A model generated the notes under the pieces. The model was not told the DNA's origin, did no database searches, and saw nothing but the letters and a program-made list of their open reading frames with translations. 64,000 nt of DNA, taken from Urechis unicinctus (taxonomy: Eukaryota > Annelida > Polychaeta > Xenopneusta > Urechidae). The position numbers and the translations under genes were made by a program. Positions within the stretch are counted from its first letter, which is position 1, and every line of letters starts with the position of its first letter. The stretch spans positions 18,103,288 through 18,167,287 of the forward strand of contig CM067350.1 in assembly GCA_034190875.2 (NCBI GenBank). Direction: 5' to 3'. This document shows positions 2,803-64,000 of the stretch, piece after piece.

Positions 2803-3175
2803 TAACGTGATCATCCGAGTCACCATCTCGATATTGACCGAGATCGTACAAACCAACGCCTCTTGGGCGCCTTAACAGCATCTGCTATGCCTCAATATGC
2901 ACGTGAACCAACCCTTGTACATGGCCACACACTTAATGTTGTGATAACACAGGATACGAATGCCGTCATCTCCGGTCAGATTTACACACCTTGGTATCGA
3001 CGAAATGCTACGCAGTGTACCACTACGCCACGAGAGCTGGCTCCCCAACCTGGCACAAAGAAAGGAGGTGGTAATGATTTAGCTTACAAATCGGCGCTAT
3101 TGCTACGTGTGTTGGGCTTCAGTAGTTGCGAAACCTACACAAACTTTGAACTTATGGGCTACTGCATTAGTTAAG
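2803..3175 (+). pseudogene. LINE endonuclease fragment, copy 1
   Basis: The frame reads SHHLDIDRDR..., the putative DxxxH-proximal region of the endonuclease, and then MPQYAREPTLVHGHTLNVVI near 2887-2946. The GHTLD(L/V)VI motif is a hallmark of the endonuclease end in CR1/L2/Jockey LINEs. After about 2975 the translation jumps to something like the post-endonuclease linker (TPWY at about 2987), skipping the segment that copy 2 retains. It is a decayed fragment with no plausible start. Confidence 0.65.
2821..2971 (+). repeat. Direct repeat, unit 1 (partner 3325-3476)
   Basis: About 150 bp repeat at 3325-3476 with high identity. Shared stretches include CACCATCTCGATAT, CCATGCCTCA- or CTATGCCTCA-type starts, GGCCACACACTT or GGTCACACACTT, GTGATAACACAGGAT and GCGAATGCCGTCATCTC (copy 1 ACGAATGCCGTCATCTC). 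The start-to-start distance is 504 bp. Confidence 0.85.
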
Positions 3176-3324
3176 AAATGTATAAAAGTCTGGCAGTGGT
3201 GAGTCGTCCTCTGTCGTCTATTGTCAGTGGTTTCAAGATGAGTGGTTTACATGAAGATTGGCCAATGTTCCTCAGCAGAAAAACCATTAACTCTAACAAT
3301 ACTGTGATCTTCGGTTGCCTAAAA

Positions 3325-3476
3325 CACCATCTCGATATATAACCGTGATCGTAAAAACCAACGTTTCTTTGGCGCCTTGAAAGCATCTGCCATGCCTCAG
3401 TATGCACATGAACCAATCCATGTACATGGTCACACACTTGATATTGTGATAACACAGGATGCGAATGCCGTCATCT
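3325..3476 (+). repeat. Direct repeat, unit 2 (partner 2821-2971)
   Basis: Second unit of the LINE-derived direct repeat. It carries the same endonuclease segment as unit 1 with scattered substitutions and small indels. Confidence 0.85.
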
Positions 3477-3640
3477 CTGACATGCAGGACACGGAGCCCG
3501 CTCTATGTGACTACGCAAGCATATTGTCCCATGACTATATCACCATGTTTTTTAATATGTCGATTTCACAGCCTTCCCAAATATCGGAAGCTGTATCATT
3601 CGTGGAAACTACGATCCATGGATGTTGACTCTCCCAAATA
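3325..3640 (+). pseudogene. LINE endonuclease fragment, copy 2, with linker
   Basis: Contains MPQYAHEPIHVHGHTLDIVI (about 3391-3450) followed by a D-x-E-x-ALCDYASILSHDY segment. This is the usual end of the endonuclease with its final SDH-like signature (here SHD). The neighbouring frame then gives KLRSMDVDS (about 3600-3635), the linker towards the reverse transcriptase. At least one frameshift separates these parts. Confidence 0.65.
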
Positions 3641-16700: not shown

Positions 16701-17285
16701 CTGCATATAACGGTGGCAGGAAGTCAGTAAAAAAGAAGGCTAACTGTATGTGTGATTTGGGATAGAAGTGCACCAAGCGATTTAACATGCAGTGGACAGG
16801 ATTGGGAGGTTATTTAATAGATTATTTGTTTATGGCGTCCGTTTGGTCTAGTTACGCGCAGCACATACGCTGTGTGATATATTTGATCACGTTTGTTGTT
16901 AGTCGCACCCAGCCCAACGCATAATAGCATCGATGTAATGTCATAACATTGTGTTATAGATTGTCCTATTGAGAAGGGTCAGATCTATTGGCTTTGATCC
17001 TTTTACGTGGTCACGTAATTGTCAAGTTTGAAAAACATTGTAAGCGAGCTCAATAAATAGTGGCTGCTCGATCATAATGATGATCGTTACGAATTTCAAC
17101 GCATTACTTGCACTTATTTAGTGGCATGCTGTAAGGCGCACATTTTCAATTGGCACCATGGTTATTGACCGATATGAATATACCAAGATTTTTCTTGAGT
17201 AGATCAACGTTCTGCACCAATTCATATTATTATAAACTTCCCATTCATATTATTAAAACTTCCCATTGGCATTACACTAAATTAT

Positions 17286-18013
17286 ACATACATACTCGAA
17301 AATACAATACATACTACATACATACATACATACATACATACATACATACATACATACATACATACATACATACATACATACATACATACATACATACATA
17401 CATACATACATACATACATACATACATACATACATACATACATACATACATACATACATACATACATACATACATACATACATACATACATACATACATA
17501 CATACATACACACATACATACATACATACATACATACATACATACATACATACATACATACATACATACATACATACATACACATACATACATACATACA
17601 TACATACATACATACACATACATACATACATACATACATACATACATACATACATACATACATACATACATACATACATACATACATACATACACATACA
17701 TACATACATGACATACACATACATACAGACAGACATACATACATACATACATACAGACATACATACATACATACATACACATACATACATACATACATAC
17801 ATACATACATACATACATACATACACATACATACATACATACATACATACATACATACATACATACATACATACATACATACATACATACATACATACAT
17901 ACATACATACATACATACATACATACATACATACATACATACATACATACATACATACATACATACATACATACATACATACATACATACATACATACAT
18001 ACATACATACATA
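17286..18013 (+). repeat. (ACAT)n microsatellite, about 0.7 kb
   Basis: Long tetranucleotide array, nearly pure, with occasional ACAC and ACAG variants, a TGAC interruption near 17708 and CAGACAGA variants at 17724-17760. Because the unit is 4 bp, all frames stay open and translate as repeating Thr-Tyr-Ile-His or Met-Tyr-Val-Cys; these are artefacts. No promoter or domain supports a protein. Confidence 0.97.
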
Positions 18014-20923: not shown

Positions 20924-21515
20924 GATATTCTGGCATAATGTATGCCAACGTTACTTTATTTTGAACAGGGAGCTCATAGGGAAATTTTACACTATATGTT
21001 CCAATACTATATGTTGATTTAAACCGATGGCCTACTGACAGTAAAATTCATAAGGGGTCTATTGCCAAAAATAGAAGACTAGACTAAAGTTAGTGCGTTT
21101 ATATACTATTGCTCATTAGATATCTGCACTCATGATTGTCAGCTCATACCATAGTGTATCACATCAAGTTAGGTCATAAAATTGATTATGTAGTTACAGG
21201 TTGGTATAGGCGTCTGTTAGATGTCATTTCATAAACCAATTCAAAACTGCGAGGATATTCTGGCATAATGTATGCCAATGCTTTATTACTCATTCTATCA
21301 TAGGTAAATTTTGAATCGGGTAATATAGTGATTGTATGGTGATCGTATATAGTGCTTATTTATAATAAGGGGTCGCACTGCATCAATAGAAGACTACAAA
21401 TGTTCATTCTTTATATACATAGGATGATTTCATTAGATATCCACATGTCATTGATTGTCAGCTCTACCATTGTGTATCACATCAAGTTAGGTCATAATGG
21501 CAAGCAGTTGATCAT
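20924..21515 (+). repeat. Two-unit direct repeat, about 325-bp period
   Basis: Unit 1 (20924-21200) and unit 2 (21254-21515) share GATATTCTGGCATAATGTAT, AAGGGGTC, ATAGAAGACTA, TTATATAC, CATTAGATATC, GATTGTCAGCTC, and GTGTATCACATCAAGTTAGG. The offset drifts from 330 to 318 bp through indels. It is non-coding and the family is unknown. Confidence 0.8.
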
Positions 21516-31317: not shown

Positions 31318-31446
31318 TCAAATAAAACAAACAAAACTTAAACCTAGCTCCAAATCACCACTTGCATAGTCAGTCAGGAGTTGGTAGGTGTAGAGCTGCC
31401 CATCGTTGTCATACTTGACATTACACCAGGTATTATAACCTGGCAC
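31318..31446 (-). CDS. Terminal exon: second half of a Tudor-like domain
   Basis: Follows a TTGCAG acceptor (intron 31804-31447, 358 bp). It encodes VPGYNTWCNVKYDNDGQLYT, then YQLLTDYASGDLELGLSFVCFI and TGA. Joined to the previous exon (RRIRHKF...HWYYGWVISQ) it gives the pattern of beta strands typical of Tudor/chromo-like barrels: basic strand, W-Y-x-G-x-V, V-x-Y-D and a tail Y-x-L. Such domains read histone or methylated ligands in known proteins; that role here is inferred only. Confidence 0.65.
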   Translation of the reverse strand: MPGYNTWCNVKYDNDGQLYTYQLLTDYASGDLELGLSFVCFI

Positions 31447-31804
31447 CTGCAACATATAACATTGTACAGTTTTTGTAAGTTTATACACCAAGAATATGTA
31501 ATGTAATTACCCAGGAGAGGAATTTGATCTGTGCTCTATTCTTATTTTTTAAAATAATAAAGTAATATAATGCATGTATTTGGAACTCACAAATGATTTG
31601 TATTCACTGGGATTAAAACAACAATCAAATATGTGTTCATAATATAAACAGTAAGCAGGTAACAATCAAAGAACTGCATTAACATGCAAACGATGCAAAT
31701 AACGCTGGTGAGACATCTTGAAATGCTGAACCTGTAGATAATGGAGACTATTAGTATAACGAATGAAAAAACTGCATGAATAATGTTCTTCAAATTTCTT
31801 TAAC

Positions 31805-34504
31805 CTGTGATATAACCCATCCATAATACCAGTGCTCAGCTACTCCTTGGAGAAACTTGTGGCGAATTCTTCTCCCAACAAGGATGGGTTGCCCAGAGCC
31901 ATCCTCTTGGGGCTCAGCAGCATTCAATGAGAATGAGGGCTGAATGAGTTGCAAGAGATTATGGGTTAGCTCTTCTATGGTTAATGCTCTCCTTCGACCA
32001 CCACTCATTTTTGTGAAAGCATGCACATTGTTCATGGTAGGATCTTCGGACTTCTGTTTCAGGACATTTTTTCAGAATTGAAGTTGCGCTTTCAGAGCCT
32101 TGATTTGTTCTCCTTTTTGCCAGCTATCTGCAGGTGGTCAAGGTAGTCATGAACTTGTTGCATACTCTGCCAGAAGCCCTAGTGTACTATGTCTGCGGTT
32201 TGCTGCACCTTCTTCTGCAGTCTGGCAGCTTGGGTTTCCTTTTGTGCTCGCATTTTTTTGACAACGGCAGCTCGACGTGCCTCTTGAATTTCCATTTGTT
32301 CGCTTTTGAAAGCTTTGCGTACATACTTTACATAGTTTACCGACTTTCTGGCATCTCTTAATATTTGGGATTTTTCACCTGACGACTTAGCCTCAAGCCA
32401 CTGACTGGTACAATTGTGGCTGAATAGAAGGTACGCTTCGGCGGCAATCGTCGTCATATTGGGTTTCTCCCTCATCAATCGGTCAAGGTGGCCGAAAACA
32501 CTTTCACTAAATTTGTTGTGCTTTGGTAGACCTGTAGCTTTCCTTCTGATGTCAGGTGACGGATCGCTCCATTTTCCACCATCAAGGTGATGGGTGAAAA
32601 TTCTTTGCATAAGCCGTGCTGTTGCGAATAGCATAACTTGCAGTACACGTTCGACTTGGTCGTCATGCTCCCATGGTGCAAGTAATTGTGGCAAATGACA
32701 TTGTCGTCTCATTTGGACATCAACAAATGGCAGCCTTGTTATACCATTCATAAAATCCCTGGTGTTGGTGCTAACATTAACCAAGAAGTCGATTACTTGT
32801 TGATATCTAATGCCGATGTCAAGGAGGTGAATATTGCTGTCTTCGATGGAGGACCACAATGACATGGTGACAAGGTGTGAGACCAACCCAAGAGCTTTGC
32901 AACCAGTTAGATATTCAGGCACGTTTGAGTCAAACAGCACAGCTTTTAGTAGACTGGTTTCTAGAAAGTAGATTACATCTTCTTGCAGATAGAAGGTGCT
33001 GGCTGCATTTTCAAAAGGAATATTGAAACGATTCCCTCGGAATGGCTCAATTTGAAGACGATCAAGGCCCTCCTCCTTCAACTATGGACGAAGATATTCC
33101 AGAAAGCTTTGGTGGCATCCAGACTTTTCATCTCCATCCTGAGCTACAGCTTTAGATGTTGTCCTTGCTAGTCTGGTAGCTCCTGATTCCTTTATCTTCC
33201 GGAAACATCTATCAAATATGGGTGCATCATCTGGAAAAAATCCATGATCTCTCTGTGAGTGTAGATAAAGCAACTTCAGCAAGGTGGACCAAAGCATGTA
33301 AGCCGCAAAAGAAATTGCATAATTTTCCCAATGAAAGTTTTCCTGCTCGGACAACAGTTCATAATTCTCTATAGTTTGTGGCAGCATTTCTTTCCGGTAC
33401 TCTTCCAACAGCTGATTGAATTTGATTTGTGTGCTGGCCCTGTCAGACATAGAACAGGAGATGTTAAGCAATATTTTCTTGGCAATCTCATTGAGGTTCT
33501 CTTGAGAGACATCTTCAATGTCTCTTAATATTGTCCTAAATGTTGCAAGAACATCCTGTCCTGATTTTGAAACAATATCACGCAGGCCAAGAACATAGAT
33601 GTTTCCTTGAGAATCACTAGCATGGAATCCTCAACACTTTTTGTCGTACTTAGAGGTTTCATCTGAAAGAAGTCCCATATGTTCCTTTTGTGGCAACTGT
33701 TCAGCCAACTGCTTTTGTGCAACAATCAGTCGCATGATGTTCCAGTCCTTGACAGTCGATGCACAGGGAAGATCAGTGGCTTTTTTCCTTGCCAATTTCA
33801 GGGTACTTGCAATAACTGACGAAACCTGTCCAGTAGATACATTGATAACAGGTTGAATACGCACTCTTTGACTTTTTCAGTGTACTTGCCATCATCTTGT
33901 TTCGTTTCGACCTTGTCATCCATCATTTCCCTTAGCCAATCATTCTCTTCAATTGTTTGGTGCTTAGTTTTTTTGCTCTGTATGAAGACTTTCCTCATGG
34001 ACATGATTTTCGAAGTCAAGAATCTCTTCGAAATTTCAGATGCTTTTCGCCTTAGCTCACATCTTCGTTGGAGCAGTCTTGCTTACATAGACTTACAAAT
34101 CTTGTTTGCTTCTGCCAGCTTCAATTTGTTTTGATTTAGTTGAATTTTGCTCCTTGCCAGTGCAAATTTGCAAATTCTCACCTTTGCAAGCTTTTGCCGC
34201 ATGTTGATCAACTATTCACAGGACTGTTTAAATTCAACTGCCAATTCATGACTTACGCGAGTCTGGCAATCAAGAAGGTCTCGTAGTGATGACGAAGCAG
34301 GCTGCTTAGGCTGTCGGGTCAATGAAGCTCCCTTTGATGGGGACAGCTCCTCCATTTTTTTATGCGCGAGATATGTTCTTTCTGATATTTTTGTATTTGA
34401 CAATTAAACTGTTCAATTTACTCTGATAGACAGCTTTAGTTGGTGGTGTATCAGTTTCATGCATTGACATCAACATTTTCACACAGGCTACAATCCCTAC
34501 AGAA
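31805..34504 (-). pseudogene. Large central exon of the transposase-like gene
   Basis: About 2.7 kb of one exon with protein-like sequence almost throughout, but split by six stop codons and three frameshifts. After the TTTAG acceptor it reads SVGIVACVKMLMSMHETDT, then a Lys-rich region, the RNase H-like core and a Gln/Arg/Lys-rich coil. It ends within the Tudor-like domain at ISQ|GTTAAA (intron from 31804). Long in-frame stretches between the stops (for example 300 codons from 33081 to 32182) show that decay is recent or slow. Confidence 0.7.
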
Positions 34505-34602
34505 CTAAATCACTTCTTGGTTTTTTATTGTTGCAGATTGTAGAACTACTGCTGAAAAATGCATAAGACACGTATATAAGACAGGGTGCATGCTACACTT
34601 AC

Positions 34603-34703
34603 ACTAGTACAAATAAGTCTTAACAGGAGACAAAATGAAATGTCTCATCGGCATTCTTCACTTTGCTGAAAAGAAAATATTCCAGGTACTCAAGACATTT
34701 CCA
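34603..34703 (-). CDS. Proposed third exon of the transposase-like gene (with TAA)
   Basis: Follows a TTTTTTATTTCAG acceptor. It encodes WKCLEYLEYFLFSKVKNADE then TFHFVSC and an in-frame TAA (34620-34622). Reading on, the frame reaches a GTAAGTG donor at 34602 in phase 2, which matches the acceptor at 34505 (one base completes the codon). The TAA may therefore be a nonsense mutation, or the true end of a short separate protein. Confidence 0.5.
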
Positions 34704-34748
34704 CTGAAATAAAAAACACAACAAAGTACTAATCATTCAAGTAAATAC

Positions 34749-34796
34749 CTTGGTTTGAAGGAAGTATTTCTTGTATTTTCTCATAACTGGTACAAA
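34749..34796 (-). CDS. Proposed second exon of the transposase-like gene
   Basis: Lies between a TTGCAGTGACAG acceptor and a CCAAG|GTATTT donor. It encodes FVPVMRKYKKYFLQTK in phase 0. The basic-aromatic composition continues into the next exon. Confidence 0.5.
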
Positions 34797-35156
34797 CTGT
34801 CACTGCAATCAACAAACATACACCCACTAACACTTAAGAGAACACAACAACTCTTGTCTTTGCGAGGGATACATAATACATGATAGTGGAATATGATACT
34901 GATCCCCTATTATCGCACACACAATCAAGCGGCACCCGCGCAGGTGATGAAGGTGGTTGCACAAAGTACAGGTGTGCTCATTTGCGTGAACGATTATGGG
35001 TGATAGATGGTTTCAACGTTTTCTCCAGTTATTAAGCTTTCTAATTATATATCATTCATCATACTTTTGAACGAAATTCACATTTAAAATATTTCACTTT
35101 CTTTAATATGCACAATGTTATTCTTTTCCATGCAAAAACAATAACATGACACATAC

Positions 35157-35192
35157 CATTCGAAAGCGCGGGTTTTCGTCGTCAGGATTCAT
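35157..35192 (-). CDS. Proposed first coding exon of the transposase-like gene
   Basis: The minus strand reads ATG AAT CCT ... (MNPDDENPRFRM) and then a GTATGT donor at 35156. It ends in phase 0 and joins exon 2 in frame. The assignment rests on the donor, the phase fit and the open frame; the exon is only 12 codons, so it could be wrong. Confidence 0.4.
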
Positions 35193-36991: not shown

Positions 36992-37032
36992 CAAGATATT
37001 TCGAATGAACCAAGTTCATTCGAAATATCTTG
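36992..37032. repeat. Perfect 19-bp inverted repeat with 3-nt loop
   Basis: CAAGATATTTCGAATGAAC (36992-37010), CAA, then GTTCATTCGAAATATCTTG (37014-37032). All 19 bases pair. It could form a cruciform or an RNA hairpin, and it is too short and too tight-looped for a usual pre-miRNA. Confidence 0.95.
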
Positions 37033-38254
37033 GGTGAAAGATAGACACAAATTGCTAATTTGTATCTGTTGATGAATCGGACTTGATGAAAGTACGACAA
37101 CTATTCAATATCATTCGGTTGGCAAACGTTGGAGGTGGTAATTGCTTCAACCAGATGAAATGTGATAGTATCAAACTATGTAATACAAATTGGCAATCTG
37201 CATCACCGCTCGATCTGAACATTACTGTGTACAAGTTAAATAAAATGCAATGATACATTGGGTTTATTCTCCCATGAGAGCGTTGGTGATGCTTGCATCG
37301 GGTAGCGGTTAAGCTAATATACAGCTTTATTTAGACACTGGGTTCTTGTCCTCAATTGCAGTTGGACCAAGTTAAGCTTGGTCCGGCGCTTATGTTGCTC
37401 TTTCCAATTATGATCGCTAATGTCTTAAGCAGGTAACTATGTCGCCATATAGTGATAATATTGATTGCGTATTTCCATAATTTCTACCTACTGTTAATTA
37501 ACAAGATGGTCTAGAAATTCGAAATGTTTCCGTAAATTAATCGGTGCTTAAATTGGTGATAGCAACTAGATAAGGTTGGACATTTATTATGCTAAGCGAG
37601 GTACACGTTCCAGTGAATAATTCAAAGCTTGAATGATACATACATCAATAAGCCAAATGCATCACAACGGCACTACCACTGGACAGTGGCACTCACTACA
37701 ATATTGGGAGCTTAAGTGACAGATGCATTACTTGTTCAGTCGCAGTTCATTTACGGAATTGAAATGCATTCGAAAAATGTCACATAACCGATGTTCCAGT
37801 TCAAAGCATATTCCTGTTAGCAAGATATAACGCAATTAGACTCAGCAATGGTTTTCTTAGGTCTAGCGACTGACATTAAAGTACATTCTCGACAAGCCGC
37901 GCGATAACTGAGAACTTTAAAGGGTTTTCGTCTTGATGCAATGCAAGATGAGTAGCTAGCAGCTAGCTGCAAACAGCTAATTTTGTCGAAGGGGCCTTCG
38001 ATGGTAATACCTTACACAAATGAACAAACCACCCAATACCCTACCGTAGCATTAGCTTGTAATTTAAATGACCAACCGTCTTACATTATGCACAATCCTT
38101 CCAGCAGCCCTAAACTCGGTACAAAGCGGATAAATCACTATGTGCGGAACATTATACATAAAATGTTACGGCAAATACAAGATGCTAGACAGCAGGTGAC
38201 ATTATGATGGCCATTTATAGCTGAAAAGTATAAAATTGTCGAATATATCACTCG
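37033..38254. other. No gene recognised
   Basis: Holds the family D repeat copy at 37850-37955 and otherwise no supported feature. Confidence 0.5.
37850..37955 (+). repeat. Dispersed repeat family D, copy 2
   Basis: Counterpart of 10640-10740, sharing AGCGACTGAC, a GCGCG-containing centre, AACTGAGAACTTT and TTTTCGTCTTGA in the same order. This is a low-identity, old copy. Confidence 0.4.
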
Positions 38255-38584
38255 TATGCATGCATGTATGCATGTATGTATGTATGTATGTATGTATGTA
38301 TGTATGTATGTATGTATGTATGTATGTATGTATGTATGTATGTATGTATGTATGTATGTATGTATGTATGTATGTATGTATGTATGTATGTATGTATGTA
38401 TGTATGTATGTATGTATGTATGTCTGTATGTATGTGTATGTATGTATGTATGTATGTATGTATGTATGTATGTATGTATGTATGTATGTATGTATGTATG
38501 TATGTATGTATGTCTGTATGTATGTATGTATTGGTGTATGGATGTATGTATGTGTATGTATGTATGTATGTATGTATGTATGTA

Positions 38585-38679
<95 letters not shown>

Positions 38680-38720
38680 GATGGATGGATGGATGACTGG
38701 TTGGTTGGATGTATGTATGT
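38255..38720 (+). repeat. Composite microsatellite (ATGT)n-(AT)n-(GGAT)n
   Basis: (ATGT)n spans about 38262-38587 with a few CTGT and GTGT variants, followed by (AT)n 38588-38674 and a short GGAT/GGTT tail to about 38715. The same two-part organisation, reverse-complemented, occurs at 61784-62522. The open Met-Tyr-Val-Cys frames are repeat artefacts. Confidence 0.95.
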
Positions 38721-42768: not shown

Positions 42769-44269
42769 CTGAGAGCCTCTTTAATGGATATATTTTCCCA
42801 TGCTCCTGAACCAGAAATATTACTTCCTCTCGTATATGTCTATAACCAAAATGGTTTATAAAATGGTCTACATTGCCAAATACGATGCCAATATTACGAA
42901 ATCGGCCGCGGAAAAGTGACTATAGAAATGCTATTAGTATCTGAATCACCCATATAGTTCGACGGTAAATATTTCCTGAATCTATTTATGTGTACATCAT
43001 ACGTGATGCTGCGATGAGCAAAGGGGTATATATATAGCAACAAGCATTAGTGAGATATGGTTCCTCATTTCAGAAAATGATGTTATAGATGGCAGTTCTC
43101 GATATCACGGAGATCTATGGAGAGGTCTGCTTGGCAATTTGAAATAAATTACAAGACCACATGATAGTTTAGAGGTAGCAGCTACGCTTCAATTTTTGTG
43201 CTGCAAAATCTGTTATACGACGCACAAGGAGAGAAGACGAATAACTAAGTTTAATGAGTTATGTAGAGTGTAATATAATAATTAGGCGTTAAGGCTATTG
43301 CAACTTTCAGACACACTTTTAAATTTTGAGTGTCAAATTTCAAACAATGATGAATGCTGGTTAAGAAATGTATACCAGCCCCAAGTACGATCGTGTAATG
43401 AATATTGATGTAAATATACTTCATATGCTATATGATCGGGTCGTCTGCAGCCAAAGATCAAATACAGAAAAGTCGTCGGCCAACCAATAATGGTATTTGA
43501 GGTATGAGATAACGGGATGAACTTAACCTTTGCAATAAGAATGGTCGGAATGGCGGGGGAAGGGGGAGATGATTGGTACAGCTGCCCATTAGTCTATGCA
43601 TCAATAAGCTCACTCGACGACATGCATGGATATATATCTTCCAGGTTAACAGAGGGCAGTGCAAATGCCGGTAATAGGTGAATAACACTTTTGCAGATTT
43701 AGAAGTTGCCCTATAACCCAAAAATACATTTTGCAGTGTAGATATCTCCAACGGAATCAACGGCCTTTCATTTCAGCGCGTTCTTCGACCAATAGATAAT
43801 CATCCGTCAGCTACTGTCTTATTTGCGACCACGTCTATCGCCATATCCTTCTTCAGCAGGCACATAGTTAACCCTGACCTATGAATATCACTTAGATAAG
43901 GGCTCGCTACGTAATCATGATGCAGACCATCAGGTAAGCATCTGAAGCTTAAAGGAAAATGCAACAGCTTACTGCGGAGCCACCCAGCGAACGTCGTGTA
44001 ACTGCGCGTCATTTGGCGGGAAGCACCTTAGAAGCGCTGCGCGTATTTTCGCACCCGGTGCGCCCGCTTCTGCGCTGCAATGAGTTGTCTTCAAAGTAAT
44101 TTGCACACAAATTATTTCTGTTGAGTTAAGATCAAAGGTACACCTCATGTATGACGCAATTTGTAAAGAGGGGCGTTCTAGAATGGTGAATCTAAATACA
44201 GCAGTTATCACAAATTGTAAACATGATCTTTGACGTTATGAATGTGGTGACGATGTGTCTTCGATGACT
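42769..44269. other. No gene recognised
   Basis: Three minus-strand frames of 70-100 codons (43.46-44.21 kb) have no recognisable domain and no supporting splice sites. Confidence 0.45.
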
Positions 44270-44274
44270 TATAA

Positions 44275-44670
44275 TTTTTTTAAAATTTCGTTCATATTAC
44301 ATATATATCTGCACCATATAACAAAGTTTACTTCAAAAGTCAGAGGTTAAAATTTTATGGAGGTTTGAATATTGTTATAGACCGCACTCACGGAATACAA
44401 CTGAAAATCCGTTGTGGCTTCCCATAGACTGCGCGGACCTATTATTCTTTAAAATTCTGTACATATAGCAAATAGCACTGCACCATGTTACCAAGTTAAC
44501 TTCAAAAGTCAGTAGTCAAATTTACCACAGAAAATCCATTGTGGCTTCCCATAGAATACACGGACCTTTCATTTTTTTTACATTCTGTTCATAGTACATA
44601 TATCACTGCACCATATTACCAAGGTTACTTCAAAAGTCAGTGATAAAAATTGTTTTATGGACGTTTGACA
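44275..44670 (+). repeat. Short tandem array, three diverged units
   Basis: The core (T)GCACCATATTACCAAG followed by TTACTTCAAAAGTCAG recurs at 44311, 44480 and 44608. GAAAATCCRTTGTGGCTTCC and CATAGA...CGGACCT recur between the later units. Spacings of 169 and 128 bp indicate indels between units. This is a local satellite-like duplication and is non-coding. Confidence 0.85.
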
Positions 44671-47600: not shown

Positions 47601-48030
47601 ACTACTGCGTCAACTGGGTGCTTCACATGACACGCCATTGGTATTGAATTACCTAAGCTGAATAAGCTGAATGCCATCATACATTGCCTAATATCAAATA
47701 CACAACATGAGTACGAGAGTAAATAACGTGGCATGCTAGGTGTTTACAACCTCGCAAATTGATGAGTGCATGCTCTATTGCACCAATAAAGTGGCAGGTA
47801 GGCTGGTAGATCGTTTTATGAAAACATGATTATTTGGTCGACAGTTTTCAATTTTCCTACAAACACAATAAATTTTGTAAGTATTATGGTAGAAGTCTAA
47901 AATTTGTTTGGCTCTGGCGGTCAATTTCTGCATATTTATCAACACGAATATCTTCATGTGTCATATCTGCAATGTGCACCGGACACTTTGGGACACGTTT
48001 GCTGACCTCTGTGTTATTTTGTTGGATGAC
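44671..48030. other. No gene recognised
   Basis: No coherent coding or RNA feature was seen. The frame at 45404-45592 has a hydrophobic stretch but no start context or partner exon. Confidence 0.45.
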
Positions 48031-48312
48031 GAGCACCTGGATCTTTGCGCGGAAACTGCGATGACAAGATGTCTTTCATAATTAACGTCAGCCAAAATCA
48101 ATGTCAATGATAAGACCTCTAAGATGTGATACTGTAAGGGAATGGGCTTGTCAAATGGAAAATTAACTGACTAGCACCTGGATCTATGCGTGAGAAGCAG
48201 CCATGACAAGATGGCTTTCATAACTAACGTCAGCCAAAGGCAATGATTATGATAAGACCTCTTACATGTGATACTGTAAGGGAATGAGCTGGTCAAATGG
48301 AATATTAACTGG
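48031..48312 (+). repeat. Tandem duplication, 141-bp unit, two copies
   Basis: AGCACCTGGATCT begins at 48032 and 48173. Both copies continue with CATGACAAGATG or GATGACAAGATG, CTTTCATAA, TAACGTCAGCCAAA, GATAAGACCTCT, TGTGATACTGTAAGGGAATG and GTCAAATGGAA. Identity is high. Confidence 0.9.
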
Positions 48313-56054: not shown

Positions 56055-56622
56055 ACCCGCGTTAATCAGATTCGGGCCAAAGCAATCTACAAGGTATCCA
56101 TAATGAGCCTGTAGCTCCGAGGAATATGCAGAGTTGACTGGGATCGAAGTCAAGCCATGTGGGATTGTAGTGTCCCAAACACACCCCAACCTCGCATGCT
56201 CACCAGATGTGGTTGTGACTGATGACATGAATGCTGAGGTCAAGTTTCCCTACAGTACCAGGGACAAACCTGTCACTCCTGTCTCAGTGCCATACCTGGT
56301 CAATGAGAACAACCAGCTCACCCTTAAAATCAACATGACTACTATTACCAAATTCAGGGCCAGTTGTTTTGCACGAACAGTCAACTTTGTCATCTTGTGG
56401 TGTTTACGTCTCAGAGTATGGAGATTGTTCCAGTTACCCGTGACGATGAGTTTATTACTTCTATGATTTCAAGGTAAGAGGTGTTTTTCAGGGACTATTT
56501 CAAAGAGCTATACTTGATTCAATGTTTTTTCACAATTTCTCTTACTGAGTAGTCTTGTGCACTGATTTCTTTTTTCTTTAAGGAAGCATTTGCCTGCACA
56601 TTGCATGTGGTGGAATGTATAA
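56055..56622 (+). pseudogene. YqaJ-type nuclease fragment (two 3' exons), frameshifted
   Basis: Resembles the YqaJ family of PD-(D/E)XK exonucleases. Visible motifs are ACSPDVVV with Asp at 56206-56208, AEVKFPYS with Glu at 56236-56238 and Lys at 56242-56244 (the ExK pair), and YYYQIQGQLFC, the Gln-rich motif in the alternate frame. The exon ends TCAAG|GTAAGAG at 56473. The terminal exon 56583-56622 after TTTCTTTAAG reads KHLPAHCMWWNV then TAA, in phase, and an AATAAA at 56621-56626 overlaps the stop. Frameshifts are seen near 56092, near 56119 and at about 56328, where a run of A appears one base short. The N-terminal part is missing, including the region before QGIHNEPVA. In intact elements the nuclease presumably assists transposition. 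Family assignment is by motif recognition. Confidence 0.75.
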
Positions 56623-58792: not shown

Positions 58793-58925
58793 TGATGTAT
58801 GTATGTATGTATGTATGTATGTATGTATGTATGTATGTATGTATGTATGTATGTATGTATGTATGTATGTATGTATGTATGTATGTATGTATGTATGTAT
58901 GTATGTATGTATGTATGTATGTATG

Positions 58926-58959
<34 letters not shown>

Positions 58960-59272
58960 TGTATGTATGTATGTATGTCTGTGTATGTATGTATGTATGT
59001 ATGTATGTCTGTATGTATGTATGTATGTCTGTATGTATGTATGTCTGTCTGTCTGTCTGTATGTATGTATGTCTGTATGTCTGTCTGTCTGTATGTATGT
59101 ATGTATGTCTGTATGTACATGATAATGTATGTATGTATGAATGTATGTATGTAGTATGCTGTATGTATGTAGTGTATGTAGATGTATGTATGTATGTATG
59201 TAGTAATTGTCAATTGTTGCTTATGTATATATATGTATGTATGTTGTATGTATGTCTGTATATATGTATGTA
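58793..59272 (+). repeat. (ATGT)n microsatellite with CTGT variants, degrading to the right
   Basis: Pure ATGT to about 58976, then mixed ATGT and CTGT units to about 59118, then broken remnants to 59272. Open Met-Tyr-Val-Cys and His-Thr-Tyr-Ile frames are artefacts. Confidence 0.95.
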
Positions 59273-61778
59273 TCCATCTGGACATGAAGTATATAACGGT
59301 TTTATGCATATAGATTATTTGAAAATCAGTCTGTATGCTTTTATAGAATATTACAGCCAACATATTTCCATCACTGTCACTTAGCATTGTTTGCCGCTAA
59401 AATTCTGTGAATAAAAAGCTCTTCGTAACGCAACATAAAAGGACCTAGTAGGTGTTAGCCACAGGCCGTTAGCGGTTTGTTTACTTTCTGTGATATTCCA
59501 GTCAAATAACAGCCAACATATTTCTAAGTTACAGTATCTCAATTCTTTAGCGTAATTTACACAAAAACAAACACGGCGAAGACATTATGCTTTGGCATCG
59601 GAATGAAGATAGTGTTGCAATGTTGCAAATCAATGTGATTATATTATACTCGGATCTCTGCATTATTTACTTTCATTCCTCATGTGGACCTGTCAGTACA
59701 TAAAAGCGTTGGGCTGGTAGAACATCAATATTCCAGTTAATGGTCATAGAAATACATCGTTCTAGTTAGGGTTGAGTTGCCCCTTAGTGCACATTATGTA
59801 TATTGTGGCCACAGCACCAACTTGCTGTTATGATATACGGCTTGCAGCACTGTGAAACGCCATTAATCCCTGCCCTTGGAGAGTGGGAGTCTATTGCATA
59901 AATATTCGTCAGAGACTAGAATTTAGAATTGCTAATATTTAATTTATAACATGAATTCGAAATAATCCCTCTCTCACTACCATTTAAAACAGTTTGTTAT
60001 GACCTGCCCAGCTTATCACTCTAGGTAAGCCATGACCACATTTATATCCACTAAATTACATTAAAGTATCTTGCGCTTCAAAGAATGGTCAAGATAATGT
60101 CGGATAACTCGCTATTGTCTTATAACTTGATGTACGCAAAGCAAATCTTTCATCATTGGGCCATAGTCAACAGTACAAAATGATGTCAAAGTATCGTTGC
60201 ATCATTGTGTCAATATTTACGTCCATTAGTATATTAAATTGCTAGCCATTGGTCAGGGAAAAGACCCAAGAGGCAATATATAATTCATTCACAATGCAGC
60301 TGTCTTTCATAAGGCACTATAACCCATTATCTTCTTCCATTTGACAATTGTGTTTGTCAATAGCGATCGATGAAACCCCACGAAGCATAGTATGCAATTG
60401 CGGCTTACAGAACAAAACGAGTAAACCAACATATGCATGCATGCTTAGGTTAATACTGTACCTGTCGTGGGTGTACAAGATGAAGGTTTGGCTTATTTAC
60501 CTTCACGAATACGATGTACGCCCAACTATGCAAGCTTTCAGCTGGGTTATTCCAATACCATCGCAGCATTAGATTAAACGCCCAGCACACACACACCTTG
60601 TGAGCGCAAACAGTCCCATTAAATTGCATTGCGAGCATGCCATCCATCCTATATGTTCGGCAGTAAAAACCTGACCGTTAACGAGGAAGCAATCACTGCA
60701 ACAGTGCTTAAATAATGGATCGACGCATCATAGCCAGTGTTCGTTGTGCCGACCGGCTTATAAAAACTCATGATTGATGTAAGTGACATGAAAATTAATT
60801 CGAACTAGAGTGACAAATTTTTTAAGCTTGTTATAATTATGCAGCCAATGTGACAATGAATGCTATTGTGAATGCTCTTTAAAGTACACATAAATTTGAA
60901 ATGGTGTTTCGGGCGATCTTAAACGAAAGTATCAGGCTCTTGAAACTGTCGCTTAAAACTAAGTAATTGGCTGCAGTTGGTGTCAAGCTTTTGCCTTCTG
61001 GTTCCGACACGCAAGCTCTTCTCTGAACTTTTCTGGGTAAAATCCAAATATTGCCTAATGCATTATAAAGCTACTGCAACTATGTATCACATATTACTTG
61101 AGTTTTTGAAAATCTGAAAACAATTGAGAATAAGCTCAGAAAATGTCGTCCTTATTTCAATACAATACGAAATATTGCGTTTCGCACAAAACTATATTAT
61201 GACATCCTTAAAATGAGGTATTACCAGAATATGCAAAGGGCGTCCACATTTTGTTTCTATCATTATTTACCTGCTCATATAGCAAACGATCAGTTGCTAT
61301 TCGACCTAATCAGGGCTGTTTTCCGTAACGCGAAGAAATATTTCAGCACGATAGACATTTAATCCAAATAGTATGATTATCGCATTATAATTAAATTGCC
61401 GACGGATTGGTAGAATTGTACATTGGCAAGTTGAAGTCCATCTCACAATTCTTCGGGATGTTTCATGAAAATGGTTAATGTATTGATTTGTCTTCTTCCA
61501 AGGCGATACACTTATATAGGATGGGTTGTAGTAGATGGTACTTTTGATATACGAATTGGAACGATATATTAACCGACAAATACGATAATGCACGCACAAC
61601 AATACTATTAACACTCCTGTTACGATGTCGAAATTGTCCTTTAAATAATTATCTGATGTTGACAAATATAATGCCCAGCGTGAATTGATGTTTAGCGCAT
61701 TGAATCGATTAATAAATATATATGAATGCTCTAGTCTCTAGTTGTTTACTTGAAATGTTGTAATTTTACACATGGCTT

Positions 61779-61783: not shown

Positions 61784-61813
<30 letters not shown>

Positions 61814-61824
61814 TATATATATAT

Positions 61825-61897
<73 letters not shown>

Positions 61898-61956
61898 TAT
61901 ACATATATGCATATAAATATATATATATATATATAGATATATATATAAATATATAG

Positions 61957-62022
<66 letters not shown>

Positions 62023-62310
62023 GTAAAAACATACCTGCATACATACAGACATGCATGCATGCATACATACATACATACATACATACAGACATACATACAT
62101 ACATACATACATACATACATACATACATACATACATACATACATACATACATACATACATACATACATACATACATACATACAGACATCATACATACATA
62201 CATACATACATACATACATACATACATACATACATACATACATACATACATACATACATACATACATACATACATACAGACGTACATACATCAATACATA
62301 CATACATACA

Positions 62311-62342
<32 letters not shown>

Positions 62343-62522
62343 CATACATACATACATACATACATACATACATACATACATACATACATACATACATACA
62401 TACATACATACACATACATACATACATACATACATACATACATACATACATACATACATACATACATACATACATACATACATACATACATACATACATA
62501 CATACATACATACATACATACA
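61784..62522 (+). repeat. Composite microsatellite (AT)n-(ACAT)n
   Basis: (AT)n with small interruptions spans 61784-62016. A short junction (to about 62034) precedes (ACAT)n from 62035 to 62522 with few variants. It is the reverse-complement arrangement of the 38255-38720 array. Repeat-encoded frames are artefacts. Confidence 0.95.
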
Positions 62523-64000
62523 TGCATTTCCTATAGCAAATGTTATTCTTAATAATGCATATCTATATCTAGAGAAGATCGAAACGCAAAACTTACATCA
62601 TTTTTTGTCCTTAACGACGCAATTAGTTTTTTGCAGTATTGAAGATAAGCTTTAATAATTGACAAGCAGCACGACGGACGGAAACGCTTGCGCCCAGAGC
62701 CTATTGGTGGTATATGACGCAAAATTGGCAATGATTTTTTTTATCATCAAAGGATGGATTGGCGAATATTTTGAATGAGAACGAAATGATTTAACCGGAA
62801 TTTAGGACTCGTGTCTCTATAGGCGTTAATATTAGAATATGTGCTAATTAATTAACGACGCACTGCGCTGATGCCGGGCGTTATCTTATTTGAAAACGAA
62901 CCCTTTGCATAACAAGCCTAATCGTAATTTGGATCCAGCTTGTGGCCACTCTTTGTCAACTGCATTCAATGGCAAACGAAGTCACAAAATACTGGGAGTT
63001 GTGCAAAAAAGTCTTTCGTCCAATTAGGTCTTCATTATGCGTTTTGCATCCCATCTGGAACGCAATTAGTCAGGACAATCAAAGGATATTACGCCGATTA
63101 TTTACGATTACAATTTTTGCTCTGCGCTGATCTCGGTATCACTGCGGCAGGAATAATATTGGTCGCTTCACTTATCACTGGTGACGGCTCAGGTTTTGCT
63201 CTGCCCATAACTTGTAGCGTGCGCAACATCAGATAATGTATCTATTGAAGTTATCATATTACCGCGAGACACTTATACGCTCGATTCAATTCACTATGGC
63301 TACAAATAATGCTCGACCGCAAGGGTTGATGCATACAGGTTATTATTTTTTAATATTAGAGTTCAAAACTGCGCAAAAATTGTCCTTTGACCAACATCCC
63401 AATGGGCAGTCAACACGCTACACATAGGTTGATGGAGCGTCTATCAATAATACAAAGGGGCAAGCCATTATATCAACTGATTGGTGCTGTAAATACTAAT
63501 AATATTGTCGCAGCCAGGAAGTGCCATACTTAGTTCTTGGCGTTGATACATGCTATCGTCAGGACATGGTCAGCTTCCCAGACGTGATTGCAAACGTTTG
63601 CGCGTTTTAATGATTGCCATGCATAAGGTGATCAAAATGTGCCATGCATAAGTTCAGCTCACTAAAATATGCCTAAAATATCTTGGGAAAAAGACTAATA
63701 AAAGACTGACGATATGTTCAGCTCACATTGGTTTCATGTGTTGCCCACCAATATTATACCTAAAGTAAAACGTTATCTTCATATACCTTGATGCCATTAA
63801 CATCTTGTTAACCCTATGAACAACAGTCTAAGCTACGACGTGTTTGATTAAATACGGCTTATATAAAATCTGAAGTCGCGTGTTTGTAAAAGTAAGGCAA
63901 GTTTTGATGATCACGTTTATAAAACGTTACGCTTAGGCTCGTTTTAACAAATGACTTCCAGAGTAAGCATGCATGCCTCTTTGTTGTACAAATACAACCC
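62523..64000. other. No gene recognised
   Basis: Contains family A repeat copy 3 (62960-63130). The plus frame at 62940-63236 overlaps that repeat and has a hydrophobic C-terminal part, but it shows no other coding support. Confidence 0.45.
62960..63130 (+). repeat. Dispersed repeat family A, copy 3
   Basis: Shares TTCAATGGCAAACGAAG with copy 1 (TTCACTGGCAAAGGGAG) and the CATCCCATCTGG...CAATTAGTCA core with copy 2. Open frames across it seem incidental to the repeat. Confidence 0.5.

Follow-up and report, generated by a model that had tools for sequence, protein, structure and literature searches.

What gene left the protein-like remnant that lies on the minus strand, from about 34509 to 31342, of a 64,000-nucleotide stretch of Urechis unicinctus DNA (assembly GCA_034190875.2, contig CM067350.1, positions 18,103,288 to 18,167,287; the window hereafter)? 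The best explanation overall, which is probably correct, is a dead gene of a cut-and-paste DNA transposon, coding for a Hermes-like enzyme with a Spindlin-like histone-reading tail. That the protein is a transposase is very likely; that the locus is a decayed copy of a gene from a DNA transposon family of animals is held with fair confidence. Steering of insertion by the Tudor tail, proposed by analogy, is an evenly balanced proposition.

The locus was delimited with a query, P0001, which corresponds to the core of the remnant (33876-32182, two stops read as X). Protein searches identified 107 relatives at E<=1e-3, the top match (1.6e-197) being 57% identical at 98% query coverage. Comparison of these relatives with the window by tblastn (E<=1e-2) gave 204 high-scoring segment pairs, all inside 34509-31333 on the minus strand, versus none in the reversed window used as control. 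This confirms the earlier note on this DNA, made from the letters alone, which had described protein-like minus-strand sequence marked by stops and frame changes. All segment pairs fall in one locus, and there is a single copy in the window. None of the 107 relatives matched 34510-35192, which places the start of the coding match near 34509; the piece at this outer edge matches weakly (E 0.004).

Frame-tolerant alignments revealed 4 stops and 4 frame changes both against P0002 (745 aa aligned, 426 identical) and against P0003 (735 aa aligned, 398 identical). These changes span approximately 34064 to 31780, and the coiled-coil frame is bounded by two further stops, near 34083 and 34212, so that the seven stops and three frameshifts counted in the earlier note are roughly right. 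Two inner frame changes mark the core, near 33350 and 33250, and the CxxH segment (33334-33251) reads in the shifted frame. Despite the decay, the codons of two Asp, one Glu and the CGLH motif are still present. The five exons of the same note did not hold up: the majority of the junctions reflect a shift of reading frame, because the predicted proteins of the relatives are continuous from the coil through the core into the first barrel half. Inside the barrel there is support for one intron, at 31804-31447. The first barrel half is present in 59 of the 222 relatives examined; 30 of these continue through the second half, and 29 stop at most 52 residues past the donor point of the window (a split corrected by eye, as the script gave 24 and 35, but six of the latter group can be seen to continue). 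P0042, an NCBI protein of Mya, reads through the barrel junction as the window would. In the database this protein carries the name 'SPIN3-like protein'.

The structure was predicted with AlphaFold2 for P0047, an intact relative 36-37% identical to the window core (87 aligned sequences, window core included; mean predicted local distance difference test, pLDDT, 90.1; predicted template-modelling score, pTM, 0.70). From the N-terminus on, the model features helices, a long coiled coil (115-215), further helices (231-295), then an RNase H core built on strands at 299-308, 311-319, 325-333, 371-376 and 419-422, a helical insertion (443-680), one more helix (688-703), a long helix spanning 732-796 and finally a small barrel (887-943). 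The N-terminal domain of P0107 is predicted as four helices, with pLDDT mostly 92-98. The coiled coil, RNase H core and Tudor barrel first read from the letters are all predicted in P0047; core and tail, for which structure prediction had been suggested as a check, both appear in the model.

In the P0047 model D304 resides on strand 1, D377 right after strand 4, C423 and H426 right after strand 5, and E691 on the helix that follows the insertion. These locations are the usual ones in DDE transposases that carry an insertion domain. Conservation was scored in 216 sequences of at least 300 aa, P0001 included, with gaps set aside. Asp was found in 178/180 and 199/201 sequences at the D304 and D377 columns, Cys in 196/201 and His in 197/201 at the C423 and H426 columns, and Glu in 140/142 at the E691 column. 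Literature is cited here from passages of PMC7864079, PMC12477816, PMC7780238 and PMC4763223; those of PMC7780238 bear also on residue placement in DDE transposases with an insertion domain, and the hallmarks of hAT elements used for comparison come from passages of PMC7780238 and PMC4763223.

Residues 262-727 of P0047 match the fold of Hermes in the model, at 12% identity only. By predicted fold, order of the catalytic residues and CxxH, the protein would work like a hAT transposase; it is not filed as a hAT member, because neither a hAT profile nor a BED finger was detected in the scans described below. According to passages of PMC4763223, a BED zinc finger is N-terminal in many hAT transposases and dispensable for cleavage by Hermes. 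The finger was not seen in Pfam scans of the window pieces or of 8 members of a distant, echinoderm-type subfamily, nor among the 25 families listed of the 49 in Pfam that 45 members matched; in the model the coiled coil occupies its place. A conserved GNRFN motif (R in 177/181, F in 179/182) may, as judged without a residue-level structural alignment, occupy the place of Hermes W319, the tryptophan used for comparison (passages of PMC4763223).

Several null results weigh against a transposon origin. No hAT or other transposase profile of Pfam was found in the window pieces at E<=10, in P0067 or in the 8 echinoderm-type members, nor any transposase profile among the 25 families mentioned above, each of the remaining 24 being matched by no more than one member. 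Dimer_Tnp_hAT is an example of a hAT profile. No transposase was retrieved by a sequence search of the PDB with a core-only profile (A4). The ends of hAT elements feature short terminal inverted repeats and an 8-bp target duplication. Inverted repeats and target duplications had been named in the earlier note as something to look for; around the window copy, two scans found none above shuffles. The narrower scan (nine settings, 20 shuffles each) gave 0-4 candidates per setting, and every setting was equalled by at least 3 of 20 shuffles. No relative was confirmed in IMG/VR, bacterial and archaeal genome contigs, plasmids or phages, hence no flanked second copy was obtained from these collections. 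Two candidates were discarded: the excess of the wider scan over shuffles consists of AT repeats, the scan having run into a microsatellite (38254-38720), and the pair 35323/29028 (12 bp with 1 mismatch) is no better, as element ends, than chance would give.

The Hermes-like fold would be found also if the family belonged to a superfamily that Repbase or Dfam already lists, either hAT proper or one lacking a solved structure, of which Kolobok, Dada and KDZ are examples. The mechanism would be the same, and novelty would shrink to the tail. Many library families have no Pfam model, and the name given to P0042 tells that automatic annotation has already seen the tail; however, no transposase profile is among the listed Pfam matches of the 45 members, and a literature search, with most subscription papers outside its reach, turned up neither such an element nor any Tudor-bearing DNA transposon. 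A catalogued superfamily is regarded as unlikely.

Named relatives were identified in bivalves (Mytilus, Mya, Mercenaria, Pecten, Pinctada, Dreissena, Tegillarca, Ruditapes), in the urchin Strongylocentrotus and in the sponge Dysidea avara. A further subfamily resides in the brittle star Amphiura filiformis, two Lytechinus urchins and the sea star Asterias; the second search for relatives is represented by the best 120 of its 170 matches. P0076 comes from a bacterial record labelled 'Sedimenticola sp. MAG', and probably stems from DNA of an animal host that was carried into the assembly. In a tree of 36 cores, chosen among 137 long enough, the window groups with S. purpuratus and three unnamed relatives (support 100/100). 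The echinoderm-type subfamily (P0106, P0224-P0235), whose named members are all echinoderms, has an extended N-terminus, and its placement in the tree is unsure owing to long branches. P0094 and P0098, from Mytilus edulis and M. coruscus, share a long branch (1.64, tips 0.067 and 0.016); their predicted proteins are without the Tudor tail, and they are a candidate domesticated member.

Mya, Mercenaria and Mytilus edulis encode three distinct proteins each, 30-96% identical where aligned, and sequences form clusters of up to 93 at 90% identity, which may include repeats across assemblies. The family is transposase-like, with several copies per species, and may be mobile. These copies, divergent within a species, and the clusters, repeats across assemblies permitting, speak against a host family long ago derived from a transposase, of which the window would hold a pseudogene and in which the tail would serve chromatin regulation rather than insertion. 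So do the decay of the window copy and an active site near-invariant even in very divergent members, although catalytic residues could be retained for host use, the scans around the window copy gave no terminal repeats above chance, and the branch pattern of P0094 and P0098 fits a host gene. Domestication of the whole family is judged quite improbable.

The tail was identified with the Spin-Ssty profile of Pfam. Profile positions 1-28 match the first barrel half of the window (E 0.048, 13.9 bits) and positions 26-50 the second (E 0.0014, 18.8 bits), both below the curated cut-off of 25. Among members, the profile was found in 15/45 at E<=0.1 (best 2.2e-12), and in 0/8 of the echinoderm-type members scanned; the latter subfamily ends, by eye, in a barrel-like stretch that the profile misses. 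In the P0047 model the tail adopts the Spindlin barrel fold, and is likened to repeat 2 of Spindlin-1. Aligned to the aromatic cage of Spindlin-1 Tudor 2, the window features F, Y, Y and Y, with a W one residue ahead of the second. Columns 1 to 4 are aromatic in 45, 47, 47 and 12 of the 47 relatives with letters in all four, seven of the relatives in the alignment being seeds of the profile used. Two counts argue against histone reading throughout the family: all four columns are aromatic in 10/47 relatives, and the fourth position is Leu in 26/47. The barrel is kept, but its ligand may vary.

Spindlin-type domains read histone marks in host proteins, and the ligand of Spindlin Tudor 2 is histone H3 trimethylated at lysine 4 (H3K4me3). 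In the mechanism proposed, the coiled coil would mediate dimerisation, and the small helical domain, which may be a helix-turn-helix, would recognise the ends of the element. The predicted RNase H core, with D, D, E and CxxH, would excise the element by the Hermes route. The C-terminal barrel would hold on to histone tails bearing a methyl mark (H3K4me3 for Spindlin Tudor 2), and insertion would be steered to chromatin carrying the mark, probably open promoters. The interpretation in the earlier note, in which a cutting core joined to a chromatin-reading tail would suggest targeted insertion, is partly supported. Both folds are predicted; a full cage is found in 10/47 relatives only. This count, and the absence of the Spin-Ssty profile from the 8 echinoderm-type members, would suit a tail which belongs to the transposase and dimerises, binds a host protein or loosely tethers the enzyme to chromatin, with no targeting to histone marks. 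Cage columns 1-3, nearly always aromatic, and the barrel-like tail recognised by eye in the remote P0106 group tell against it, and such a tail is considered possible, if somewhat doubtful.

The fusion of transposase and reader looks old. A further reading, tentative and falling a little short of an even balance, is that sponges, molluscs and echinoderms host an undescribed deep lineage of DNA transposons, with a reader in each deep branch and ancestral targeting to histone methylation. These would be the first known DNA transposons to read histone methylation via their own Tudor domain. The coordinates of the features that make up the locus are collected in Table 1.

Table 1. Features of the transposase-like remnant, in window coordinates.
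Feature	Position	Strand	Remarks
N-terminal helical domain remnant	34309..34509	-	frame -2; 3 tblastn matches, best P0005, E 0.004, 31% identity, weak
Coiled coil and following small helical domain	33825..34382	-	frame -3; 25 tblastn matches; stops near 34212, 34083
RNase H core, helical insertion, long C-terminal helix	32080..33867	-	frame -2; 110 tblastn matches, best P0002, 660 bits, 57% identity
Putative catalytic Asp 1 (SDETSK)	33661..33663	-	D304 of P0047; codon checked
Putative catalytic Asp 2 (MSDR)	33442..33444	-	D377 of P0047; codon checked
CxxH motif (CGLH)	33296..33307	-	checked; shifted frame -1 in the window copy
Putative catalytic Glu (SESVFGHLD)	32503..32505	-	E691 of P0047; codon checked
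First half of Spindlin-type Tudor barrel	31805..31888	-	frame -1; Spin-Ssty profile and tblastn
Intron inside the barrel	31447..31804	-	GT...AG, 358 bp, phase 0; ends read
Second half of Tudor barrel	31342..31446	-	frame -2; Spin-Ssty profile; 11 tblastn matches, best P0042, 54%

Other features mark the window. An open frame at 56107-56463 (+) weakly matches a YqaJ-like viral recombinase (PF09588, E 0.007, below the curated cut-off), and is perhaps a fragment of another mobile element. A perfect 19-bp inverted repeat with a 3-bp loop (36992-37032) folds, as single-stranded DNA, at z -9.6 versus shuffles. Arrays of four-base repeats (ATAC/GTAT/ATGT type), measuring 467 to 743 bp, are found at 17284-18013, 38254-38720, 58795-59273 and 61785-62527. 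Local direct duplications of approximately 85 to 150 bp, 77-88% identical, reside at 2821-3477, 21050-21497, 44266-44668 and 48027-48311; the third includes a 128-bp tandem unit (44396-44641).

How cut-and-paste transposons pick their landing sites is largely unsettled. If the proposed reading is true, a covalently attached relative of a histone reader makes target choice testable, many members being apparently intact. Reader-guided integration would extend from retrotransposons, known for chromodomains and for one Tudor-bearing Gypsy element, to DNA transposons, and the family might provide a tool for gene transfer that brings its own chromatin preference.

What Hermes and other hAT transposases have in common with the window family, as modelled, is an RNase H core that carries D, D and E, a CxxH motif, and a helical insertion between the second D and E; the window family differs in having a coiled coil in front and a Tudor barrel behind. 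ISCth4, of the IS256 family, matches clearly more weakly than Hermes; passages of PMC7780238 describe it as a bacterial copy-out/paste-in element. Spindlin-1 has more than one Tudor repeat, whereas the window family carries one barrel, mounted on a transposase. Chromodomain and Tudor-bearing Gypsy retrotransposons (Gypsy-10_Ec32 from Ectocarpus) share with it a C-terminal histone reader on a DNA-joining protein (passages of PMC12477816), in which the authors call the Tudor-bearing element, to their knowledge, the first transposable element reported with a Tudor domain. Those elements are long terminal repeat (LTR) retrotransposons with an integrase, in contrast to the hAT-like DNA transposase with a Spindlin-type barrel predicted here. 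The hAT-like kind is already known; what appears new, on the strength of the model, is a hAT-like transposase with a Spindlin-type reader built in.
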